Positions 28,231-30,650 of a stretch of DNA of 39,341 nucleotides are shown here, piece by piece. Both the position numbers and the translations under genes were made by a program. Source of the DNA: Bacteroidota bacterium (GTDB taxonomy: Bacteria > Bacteroidota > Bacteroidia > Flavobacteriales_D > Crocinitomicaceae); assembly GCA_006227105.1 (NCBI GenBank), contig SBFR01000183.1, positions 1-39,341 of the forward strand, read 5' to 3'. Below the pieces are notes generated by a model that saw only the letters and a program-made list of their open reading frames with translations, was not told where the DNA came from and made no database searches. Numbering within the stretch: the first letter of the stretch is position 1; each line of letters begins with the position of its first letter.

Positions 28231-28623
28231 ATGACTTTTATGAGATCAATGAAATTAATTTTAGGAATGTTATTGGTAAGCGCAGGTTTAAACTCAGCAT
28301 TTGCCCAGGAAGCTACAGCACAAGAGCGTGCCCAGAAACAGACAGAATCCATGACAACCAACCTTGAGCTAACTGAAGATCAGATCCCAAAGGTTTACGA
28401 GATCAATCTTGGTGTTAACTTGAAAAATGAAGCTATTCGAAACAACGCAGAAATGTCTGAAGAATTGAAGAAAGAAGCAATCAAAGGGAACAACGATGGC
28501 CGTAAAGCGATGTTGAAGAATGTTCTTACAGAGGAGCAATTTGCTAAGTATGAGCAGAAAGAGCAAATGCAGAAAAAACGTCAGGAAATGAAAAGAGTTC
28601 CTAAGACGATCACAACGGAATAA
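28231..28623 (+). CDS. Small secreted protein, Spy/LTxxQ-like
   Basis: 130 residues with a clear signal peptide (MKLILGMLLVSAGLNSAFA, cleavage before QEA). In-frame ATGs at 28231, 28240 and 28249 are all possible starts. The mature part is helical and highly charged, with two LTExQ-type motifs (ELTEDQIPKVYEIN and VLTEEQFAKYEQKEQ), like the periplasmic Spy/CpxP LTxxQ group of stress chaperones and the many Bacteroidota look-alikes. Chaperone function is inference. It has its own strong terminator. Divergent from the LRR gene. Confidence 0.7.
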   Translation: MTFMRSMKLILGMLLVSAGLNSAFAQEATAQERAQKQTESMTTNLELTEDQIPKVYEINLGVNLKNEAIRNNAEMSEELKKEAIKGNNDGRKAMLKNVLTEEQFAKYEQKEQMQKKRQEMKRVPKTITTE

Positions 28624-28645
28624 ATTCTTAGAAATAGTAAACTGG

Positions 28646-28678
28646 AATCCCACTCGATTTTGAGTGGGATTTTTTTTT
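28646..28678 (+). terminator. Terminator after the Spy-like gene
   Basis: AATCCCACTC-GATTTT-GAGTGGGATT (28646-28655 with 28662-28671), then T to 28678. A strong 10-bp stem. Confidence 0.92.
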
Positions 28679-28710
28679 GACCATGCTATCCATCCTAATC
28701 ATTTATTCCT

Positions 28711-28718
28711 TAACTTTG
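28711..28718 (+). promoter_or_regulatory. Candidate -7 element of rpsA
   Basis: TAACTTTG, an exact TAnnTTTG, ends 89 bases before the rpsA ATG at 28808. No matching TTG is found 17-20 bases upstream. It predicts an rpsA leader of roughly 85 bases. Confidence 0.45.
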
Positions 28719-28733
28719 CACCCTCAAAAACAA

Positions 28734-28788
28734 ACTGTTACCCAGAAAAACAGTAGTTAGAACTCTTCCGGATGATCTGGGCCCGGAA
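28734..28788 (+). ncRNA. Candidate structured rpsA leader with kissing hairpins
   Basis: Hairpin 1: ACTGTT (28734-28739) with AACAGT (28749-28754), 9-base loop. Hairpin 2: TTCCGG (28766-28771) with CCGGAA (28783-28788), 11-base loop. Loop 1 contains CCCAGA (28741-28746) and loop 2 contains TCTGGG (28776-28781), exact complements, so a 6-bp loop-loop helix is possible. It lies just before the S1 gene, where ribosomal-protein autoregulatory elements sit. No known RNA family was recognised. Confidence 0.4.
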
Positions 28789-28807
28789 TACAAGTAATAA
28801 AAGCCAA

Positions 28808-30595
28808 ATGGCAAAAGAAAAAGTATTGCAGGGAACTGCAGATTTCGATTGGGAAGCTCTGGCAATGGATGGTTATTCCAAAGCACAGCGTTCCGAATTA
28901 TCAGACAAGTATGAGCAAACATTAACATCGATCAACGAGAAAGAAGTGATCGAAGGTACTGTTGTTGCAATTACTAAGAAAGAAGTGATCATCAACATCG
29001 GTTACAAGTCAGAAGGAGTTGTAGCTGCATCTGAATTCCGTTACAATGCGGACTTGAAGGTTGGTGATACAGTTGATGTATATGTTGAATGTCAGGAAGA
29101 CAAGTCAGGTCAGCTGATTGTTTCTCACAGAACAGCACGTATGCACAAAGCATGGATCCGCGTAAATGATGTTTTACGTACAGGTGAAGTGATCACAGGA
29201 TACGTTAAGTGTCGTACAAAAGGTGGTTTGATCGTTGATGTATTCGGGATCGAAGCATTCCTTCCAGGATCTCAGATTGACGTTAAGCCAATCCGTGATT
29301 ATGACATTTATGTTGGTAAGAACATGGAGTTCAAAGTGGTTAAGATCAACCAGGAATTCCGTAACGTTGTTGTTTCTCACAAAGCGCTTATTGAGGCTGA
29401 ACTTGAAGAGCAGAAGAAGCAGATCATCTCTGGTCTTGAAAAAGGTCAGGTTCTTGAAGGTACTGTTAAGAACATTACTTCTTACGGTGTATTCATCGAC
29501 CTTGGAGGTGTTGACGGACTTATCCACATCACTGACCTTTCTTGGGGACGTGTTAACCATCCGGAAGAAATCGTTGAACTTGATCAGAAATTGAATGTGG
29601 TTATCCTTGATTTCGATGATGACAAGAAGCGTATTGCTCTTGGATTGAAGCAACTTCAGCCACATCCATGGGATTCACTTGACGCAAACCTTAAGGTTGG
29701 TGACAAAGTGAAAGGAAAAGTTGTGGTTATGGCAGACTATGGTGCGTTCATCGAAATCGCTCCAGGTGTTGAAGGTTTGATCCACGTTTCTGAAATGAGC
29801 TGGGCTCAGCACTTGCGTTCTGCTCAGGACTTCATGAATGTTGGTGATACAGTTGAAGCTGTTATCCTTACTTTGGATCGTGAAGAAAGAAAAATGTCTT
29901 TAGGTATTAAGCAATTGATGCCAGATCCATGGGAAGCTATCGAAGCGAAATATGCAGTTGGAACTAAGCACAAAGCGAAAGTTCGTAACTTCACTAACTT
30001 CGGAGTTTTCGTAGAACTTGAAGAAGGAGTTGATGGATTGATCCACATTTCTGACCTTTCTTGGCAGAAGAAGATCAAGCACCCATCTGAATTCTGTAAG
30101 GTTGGTGATGAAATGGAAGTTGTTGTTCTTGAGATCGACAGAGAGAACAGAAGAATTTCTTTGGGGCACAAGCAACTTGAAGAAAATCCTTGGGATGTAT
30201 TTGAAACAATCTTCGGAGAAGGTTCTGTACACCAGGGAACTATCATCGACATGAAAGATAAGTCTGGTATCGTTTCTCTACCTTACGGTGTTGAAGGAAT
30301 TTGTCCTTCTAAGCACTTGAGAAAAGAAGACGGATCTAACGCTAAAGTTGAAGAAGTTCTTGACTTCAAAGTAATCGAATTCAATAAGGAAGGTAAGAAG
30401 ATCGTTGTATCTCACACTCGTATGTTCGAAGAAGGAGAAGACAAGCCAGCTGCTGCTGCTAAAGGCAGTAAGAAAGGTGGTACATCATCGACTTCACAAG
30501 CAGTGAAAGCGATCAATCAGAATACTGAGAAATCTACACTTGGTGATCTAGATGCTCTTGCTGAATTGAAAGAGAAAATGGAAAAAGGAAAGTAA
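28808..30595 (+). CDS. rpsA: 30S ribosomal protein S1
   Basis: 595 residues with six S1 (OB-fold) RNA-binding repeats beginning near residues 40, 125, 210, 295, 382 and 468. The last four are the best conserved (for example GVFIDLGGVDGLIHITDLSW and GAFIEIAPGVEGLIHVSEMSW). S1 brings mRNA to the 30S subunit, probably important in a clade whose mRNAs mostly lack Shine-Dalgarno sequences. Strong codon bias (GTT, CGT, CTT, AAG) marks it as highly expressed. ATG 28808 is chosen; an in-frame ATG at 28772 would add 12 residues and fall inside the proposed leader hairpin. The low-complexity C-terminus is Lys/Ser/Thr-rich. Confidence 0.95.
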   Translation: MAKEKVLQGTADFDWEALAMDGYSKAQRSELSDKYEQTLTSINEKEVIEGTVVAITKKEVIINIGYKSEGVVAASEFRYNADLKVGDTVDVYVECQEDKSGQLIVSHRTARMHKAWIRVNDVLRTGEVITGYVKCRTKGGLIVDVFGIEAFLPGSQIDVKPIRDYDIYVGKNMEFKVVKINQEFRNVVVSHKALIEAELEEQKKQIISGLEKGQVLEGTVKNITSYGVFIDLGGVDGLIHITDLSWGRVNHPEEIVELDQKLNVVILDFDDDKKRIALGLKQLQPHPWDSLDANLKVGDKVKGKVVVMADYGAFIEIAPGVEGLIHVSEMSWAQHLRSAQDFMNVGDTVEAVILTLDREERKMSLGIKQLMPDPWEAIEAKYAVGTKHKAKVRNFTNFGVFVELEEGVDGLIHISDLSWQKKIKHPSEFCKVGDEMEVVVLEIDRENRRISLGHKQLEENPWDVFETIFGEGSVHQGTIIDMKDKSGIVSLPYGVEGICPSKHLRKEDGSNAKVEEVLDFKVIEFNKEGKKIVVSHTRMFEEGEDKPAAAAKGSKKGGTSSTSQAVKAINQNTEKSTLGDLDALAELKEKMEKGK

Positions 30596-30612: not shown

Positions 30613-30650
30613 TAAAAAAGCCGACTCGAATGAGTCGGCTTTCTTTTTTT
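30613..30650. terminator. Bidirectional terminator between rpsA and thioredoxin gene
   Basis: AAGCCGACTC-GAAT-GAGTCGGCTT (30618-30627 with 30632-30641), flanked by an A run on the left and a T run on the right, so it can work for both convergent genes. Confidence 0.92.

Follow-up and report, generated by a model that had tools for sequence, protein, structure and literature searches.

How does a group of bacteria whose ribosomes reportedly work without Shine-Dalgarno (SD) pairing (PMC9976891) set its level of ribosomal protein S1? S1 carries mRNA to the ribosome, and it is the reported lack of SD pairing that makes the setting of its level matter. The question is raised here by rpsA, the gene for S1, in a 39,341-nucleotide stretch of DNA from a member of the Crocinitomicaceae (Bacteroidota; positions 1 to 39,341 of the forward strand of contig SBFR01000183.1, assembly GCA_006227105.1), which we refer to as the window. 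In front of rpsA lie two small hairpins whose loops are complementary. Comparison with relatives establishes where three predicted helices (two stems and a loop-loop, or kissing, helix) lie, that they covary, and that they are tied to rpsA; the leader likely sets the amount of S1 made, and we infer that S1 itself is the controller. Our favored reading, to which we assign a probability of about 0.62, is that this element, a conserved cis-acting RNA at the 5' end of an rpsA mRNA that appears to carry no other gene, serves as an S1 ribosomal leader with feedback. SD-less bacteria might then, though less certainly, have an S1 feedback circuit that evolved separately from that of Escherichia coli.

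The rpsA leader in the window

A first-pass annotation of this DNA, made from the sequence alone, described a pair of 6-bp hairpins before rpsA, separated by 11 nt, whose loops carry complementary 6-nt strings, and its letters and coordinates are correct. The elements of the leader are as follows.

28734 to 28739, + strand: hairpin 1 (H1), 5' strand ACTGTT (direct reading, minimum-free-energy fold, covariation); start of the match to covariance model R2, described below
28741 to 28746, + strand: kissing strand K1, CCCAGA, in loop 1 (direct reading, re-pairing tests)
28749 to 28754, + strand: H1, 3' strand AACAGT (direct reading, minimum-free-energy fold, covariation)
28755 to 28765, + strand: linker of 11 nt separating H1 and H2 (direct reading)
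28766 to 28771, + strand: hairpin 2 (H2), 5' strand TTCCGG (direct reading, minimum-free-energy fold, covariation)
28776 to 28781, + strand: kissing strand K2, TCTGGG, in loop 2 (direct reading, re-pairing tests)
28783 to 28788, + strand: H2, 3' strand CCGGAA (direct reading, minimum-free-energy fold, covariation)
28789 to 28793, + strand: TACAA box, immediately 3' of H2 (by-eye reading in relatives)

K1 and K2 are exact reverse complements, a single base separates K2 from the 3' strand of H2, and 19 nt separate that strand from the start codon, ATG 28808. Both hairpins are present in the minimum-free-energy fold of the window leader. When the window's two loops were shuffled 200,000 times, a loop-loop match of at least 6 arose in 0.67% of shuffles, and the predicted loop-loop duplex has an energy of -10.5 kcal/mol, compared with a family median of -8.3 and a value of -2.7 for re-paired loops. 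From the window sequence alone, the case is no more than suggestive; it is the comparison with relatives, given next, that takes it well past chance.

Loop-loop pairing and covariation among relatives

The order and class used in our searches are those of GTDB, in which we take the class of the window's order to be Bacteroidia; NCBI places the Crocinitomicaceae in Flavobacteriales, Flavobacteriia. All 150 genomes searched within the family gave an S1 match, and 90 loci (L001 to L090) were read, five of which had no tblastn anchor (L063, L086, L087, L088, and L090). A parser script used only the stems and the TACAA box to define the hairpins, taking no account of loop-loop complementarity; the box was the parser's anchor, and its constancy in the parsed sets is therefore by construction. 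The score was the longest Watson-Crick run between a leader's two loops. Fifteen loci were set aside: L011 (truncated); L083, L084, L085, and L089 (extended S1); L002 and L003 (near copies of L001); and L016, L027, L030, L038, L046, L048, L051, and L059 (H1 judged misparsed). This left 70 leaders with 67 distinct loop pairs. These exclusions were decided before any loop-loop scoring, yet with the letters visible, and for this reason the test was repeated with every parsed leader kept.

Among the 67 distinct leaders, a leader's own loops match over a mean of 6.13 bp (range, 4 to 9), compared with 3.28 bp for loops taken from different leaders, and none of 20,000 re-pairing permutations reaches the observed value (maximum mean, 3.91). 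With every parsed leader kept (82 of the 85 anchored loci, 77 of them distinct), the means are 5.91 for own and 3.23 for cross-leader loops, and again 0 of 20,000 permutations reach the observed value (maximum, 3.77). Re-pairing within genera (64 leaders in 13 genera) gives 6.09 and 4.45, with 0 of 20,000 reaching the observed mean; own and cross loops are equal in genera g10, g13, g15, and g17, which have two or three leaders each. This within-genus excess of own pairing indicates that loop pairing tracks change over short distances.

A run of at least 5 is found in 58 of the 67 leaders and a run of at least 6 in 46. The 58 leaders have 45 distinct K1 strings; K1/K2 pairs include CCCAGA/TCTGGG, CCCTGT/ACAGGG, GTTTCGT/ACGAAAC, GTTCGG/CCGAAC, and AATTCCAGT/ACTGGAATT. 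By sequence, the relatives show the pattern of a kissing-loop complex, two hairpin loops predicted to pair, with covariation. K1 begins 0 to 2 nt after the 5' strand of H1 in 52 of the 58, and in 47 the gap from K2 to the 3' strand of H2 is 1 to 2 nt, and this closeness to the stems suggests that H1, the kissing helix, and H2 form a nearly continuous stack. As a separate observation, the K1 core is pyrimidine-rich and K2 is purine-rich, a polarity beyond what pairing demands; a C or T occupies the third position of the K1 run in 57 of the 58 leaders and the fourth position in 56.

For the stems, a 10-leader alignment with a hand-given structure, in which, by our reading, H1 is out of register in 3 of the 10 rows, was used to build covariance model R1, and the 75 matches of R1 form alignment A3, from which model R2 was built. 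R1 failed to detect 11 of its 86 sources, the window included, and gave no match in the window's own genome; both the window and its near copy L003 are absent from the 75. A plain MAFFT alignment of 47 leaders misaligned H1 and was excluded from the counts. In A3, which was fitted to the structure and is hence biased towards it, 95.9% of stem cells are paired. Double-sided changes occur in 11 of the 12 stem pairs, compared with 7.4 in shuffles (1 of 500 shuffles is as high), and in 207 cells, compared with 58.5. The covariation score is 0.612, compared with 0.258 after shuffling, and sliding one side against the other gives no more than 0.105. Across the 70 parsed leaders, the loops are 7 to 17 nt long, the linker is 7 to 22 nt long and 79% A+T, and the distance from H2 to the start codon is 18 to 20 nt in 52 leaders. 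The first-pass annotation had proposed a structured kissing-loop leader of rpsA and had named a lack of covariation in relatives as a finding that would count against it. Covariation is present in both stems and in the loop-loop helix, and the proposal, with helices that are also tied to rpsA, is strongly supported.

Distribution and link to rpsA

Run unfiltered on 4 kb, R2 matches the window at 28734 to 28795 with 30.9 bits, and the next best match has 9.5. A search of 150 genomes of the order with R2 yielded 41 matches spread over 40 genomes, namely, 35 of the 42 genomes of the family and five others, all in family f3. Forty of the 41 matches precede rpsA, 39 of them directly before S1 by coordinates and one (in G225) by reading, since it sits where a contig ends, ahead of an S1-like start. 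The remaining one, a second match in G096, is antisense within an unrelated open reading frame (ORF) that reads like a signalling kinase, and it is regarded as a chance match. The search missed the window's own genome, and seven of the 42 family genomes gave no match; it scored 33 first-look candidates per genome and thus locates strong copies, and there may be copies elsewhere. Within this non-exhaustive search, then, the element is what is expected of a ribosomal leader, a structured 5' RNA of a ribosomal protein gene with covariation, consistently found upstream of that gene. Run unfiltered on fetched leaders (E-values up to 1), R2 matched 25 of the 40 leaders read in the order's other families; among the 40 leaders that lie outside the order, it matched 7.

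The leaders from other families were parsed with H2 and the TACAA box required, which dropped 4 of the 40 from the order and 25 of the 40 from outside it. The 36 retained from the order include at least one from each of 12 families. When loop 2 is compared with the upstream sequence, the mean is 5.56 for own and 3.92 for re-paired sequences (maximum, 4.64; 0 of 20,000), and a run of at least 5 is present in 30 of 36 leaders, compared with 23% of re-paired loops. Families f6 and f7, with one leader each, show a longest match of only 4, and loop pairing is thus found in 10 of the 12 families. The 15 leaders retained from outside the order, but within the same class, have means of 5.87 and 4.25 (maximum, 5.53; 0 of 20,000), with a run of at least 5 in 14 of 15, compared with 32% of re-paired loops. 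By this comparison, the element is older than the order, because it is supported in leaders outside it, yet it is missing or unrecognised in many groups. In two outside-order leaders, L206 (GTAAAGC/GCTTTAC) and L214 (GAGTTTC/GAAACTC), loop 2 matches upstream sequence over a long run, although H1 is hard to draw in them.

Family f63, which is also outside the order, was read at 30 loci (L300 to L329), 29 of which were parsed (L301 was dropped, and L302 and L315 to L318 are doubtful). The longest segment has an own mean of 6.28, compared with 5.38 for re-paired loops (maximum, 6.17; 0 of 20,000), and without the five doubtful parses the values are 6.25, 5.39, and 6.21. Re-paired f63 loops reach a run of at least 5 in 81% of cases, and neither here nor in the two preceding sets is such a run telling alone. 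Loop 2 is longer in this family, and two separate segments appear to be paired between the same two loops, as in L322 (CCGGAA/TTCCGG plus GCAAA/TTTGC) and also in, e.g., L325 and L309. The second segment, which was defined by position and post hoc, after the sequences had been inspected, scores 4.04, compared with 3.30 (maximum, 3.92; 26 leaders). The order of these segments is crossed, which makes for an unusual pseudoknot topology. The S1 protein of G317, from this family, is identical at 586 of 591 positions (counted from the alignment) to PDB chain 9zcd_A, the source of which we suspect to be Flavobacterium.

The transcription unit in the window has the following features.

28644 to 28673, + strand: terminator-like hairpin preceding the rpsA unit (consensus scan)
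28711 to 28718, + strand: -7-like promoter element, TAACTTTG (direct reading)
28808 to 30595, + strand: rpsA, ribosomal protein S1, 595 aa (ORF reading, matches to relatives)
30617 to 30642, + strand: terminator-like hairpin following rpsA (consensus scan)

The Bacteroidota -7 consensus is TAnnTTTG, and from the -7-like element only, transcription would be expected to start near 28722 to 28728. All 70 parsed family leaders have TTTG, TTTGC, or TTCGC, a string short enough to occur by chance, 4 to 34 nt (median, 14) before H1. The terminator scan found four sites in the stretch scanned, compared with 1.3 expected. The hairpin at 28644 to 28673 suggests that cotranscription of rpsA from upstream is unlikely, and because terminator-like hairpins lie on both sides of the unit, rpsA appears to be transcribed alone.

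Proposed feedback by S1 and its alternatives

The apparent single-gene transcript matters for the identity of the ligand. A ribosomal protein leader that precedes a single gene is, as a rule, read by the protein which that gene encodes (PMC7247131), and we take S1 to be the ligand on this ground and because the competition of free and 30S-bound S1 is a described route in gamma-proteobacteria, where S1 represses its own mRNA and the two forms compete for a folded leader that is rich in A/U and has no canonical SD sequence (PMC10931766). Dependence on S1 is plausible here because Bacteroidia ribosomes reportedly fail to recognise SD sequences (PMC9976891). In the mechanism we propose, 30S loading on rpsA mRNA without SD pairing would lean on the S1 already bound to the 30S subunit. 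Free S1 in excess would attach to the A/U-rich single-stranded segments that the kissing complex frames, close to where the 30S footprint ends, and would lock or occlude the fold, lowering S1 synthesis; when S1 is scarce, 30S-bound S1 would open the fold, and initiation would proceed. A more far-reaching version, which we hold tentatively and at slightly less than even odds, is that this is an old S1-sensing RNA found both within the order and beyond it, that its kissing complex is the recognised tertiary fold clamped by free S1 and opened by 30S-bound S1, that the circuit evolved apart from that of E. coli, and that f63 added a second segment.

To our knowledge, the hairpins of the E. coli rpsA leader have no kissing helix. 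The gamma-proteobacterial rpsA operator resembles the leader described here in gene, in having a folded leader with A/U-rich single strands and no canonical SD sequence, and in the competition of free and 30S-bound S1 (PMC10931766). The rpsO (S15) leaders of E. coli and mycobacteria are also similar in that hairpins refold into a pseudoknot or, as proposed for Mycobacterium tuberculosis, kissing loops (PMC8470358); compared by description, they differ in ligand (S15) and gene and in that the fold hides an SD sequence. Mutation of the pseudoknot abolished S15-mediated repression in Mycobacterium smegmatis (PMC8470358), and in E. coli 30S-associated S1 reportedly melts the pseudoknot of the rpsO leader (PMC3858243).

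The element has no match at the gathering score of Rfam 15 anywhere in the window; nine weak matches (E-values up to 10) fall within 28620 to 28900, none overlapping 28685 to 28810, and four weak matches in eight relatives (E-values up to 1) are all in L319, outside the leader. Eckert and Weinberg (2020) describe ribosomal leaders of Bacteroidia and Flavobacteria for L13, S4, S15, and S16, which are of the same kind, come from related hosts, and follow the single-gene rule, but none of the 20 leaders in Table 1 of the main text serves S1 (PMC7247131; a list of 35 older leaders is supplementary). The available portions of the 2010 (PMC2864571) and 2021 (PMC8040213) structured-RNA surveys name no S1 leader, and a literature search limited to open-licence PMC papers found none for Bacteroidota; the sole S1 leader met in the literature examined is gamma-proteobacterial (PMC10931766). 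The conserved two-hairpin kissing leader is very probably a real, so far unnamed RNA element, and the best reading of its structure and position is an undescribed S1 ribosomal leader, with control by S1 as the inferred part. It would be a new RNA family for annotation, and because the leader is small and strongly covarying, control of S1 levels is directly testable by loop swaps.

Several points weigh against feedback by S1, or against parts of the structural case. Initiation on rpsU changed little when Flavobacterium johnsoniae S1 was added (PMC9976891), a result that does not bear on rpsA, and the spacing and conservation of the leader are compatible with an unregulated translation aid as well. 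The window copy is divergent; R1 did not detect it, nor did either genome search, and its fold energy is unexceptional (z-score, -1.31; 19 of 200 shuffles are equally good). The longest own match is only 4 in 9 of the 67 family leaders and at most 4 in 14 of 77 when nothing is excluded, and 6 of the 36 leaders from the order, including the sole leaders read from f6 and f7, have a run below 5. The permutations take related leaders as exchangeable, a weakness that re-pairing within genera lessens without abolishing, and the margins are narrow both outside the order (5.87 and 5.53) and in f63. The parser found no H2 with TACAA in 25 of the 40 outside-order leaders, and S1 control, if general, would therefore need other forms there.

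The main rival is a constitutive aid to initiation, in which the kissing fold would hold the A/U-rich start region accessible at a constant spacing and so offer a standby site where 30S subunits load independently of SD pairing, without any feedback from S1. The conserved 18- to 20-nt spacing and the A/U-rich linker are consistent with it, as are the requirement of a pseudoknot for standby translation of E. coli tisB (PMC7708055) and the reported lack of SD use in Bacteroidia (PMC9976891). However, a general aid might serve other genes, whereas all but one of the R2 matches (in a search that scored 33 candidates per genome and missed 7 of 42 family genomes) are tied to rpsA, and S1 is a known autogenous repressor in gamma-proteobacteria (PMC10931766). 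We consider a constitutive aid unlikely, while ranking it above the remaining alternatives.

Because the median distance from the -7-like string to H1 is 14 nt, the compact fold would be near the very 5' end of the transcript, a few bases from it, and could shield rpsA mRNA from RNases; such protection leaves the maintained distance to the start codon and the link to rpsA unexplained, and we regard it as improbable. Slightly less probable still is a leader that senses another ribosomal protein, a small ligand, or temperature. The guanidine-II riboswitch, which binds a small ligand, likewise has two tandem hairpins with loop-loop pairing, but its loops are short and invariant, whereas those of the rpsA leader are 7 to 17 nt long with highly variable letters (the 45 K1 strings noted above), unlike an aptamer core; rpsA is also the only gene apparently controlled. 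The first-pass annotation further suggested that the fold gates the choice between ATG 28808, the S1 start retained in relatives, and ATG 28772, which lies inside H2 in frame with rpsA (ORF 28772 to 30595). An in-frame ATG in H2 with no intervening stop is found in just 2 of the 70 parsed family leaders (L001 and L041), plus L002 and L003, the near copies of the window, which stand outside that count and have the same ATG letters as L001, so we give start gating very little weight. Chance hairpins, or DNA conserved for promoter or coding reasons, would suit the modest fold z-score of the window but leave unexplained the compensatory changes seen in both stems and, across four sets as well as inside genera, in the loop-loop helix, and are the least credible explanation.

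Within S1 itself, a longer N terminus is frequent in other families of the order, and the leader shifts upstream along with the start codon. In some genomes of other families (e.g., L136, L137, and L331), S1 has a long Ala/Lys-rich N-terminal extension. In the window, a small hairpin (stem TTGCAG/CTGCAG, 28826 to 28841) lies 18 nt into the rpsA coding region; some relatives have similar letters, and the encoded peptide may account for this recurrence.
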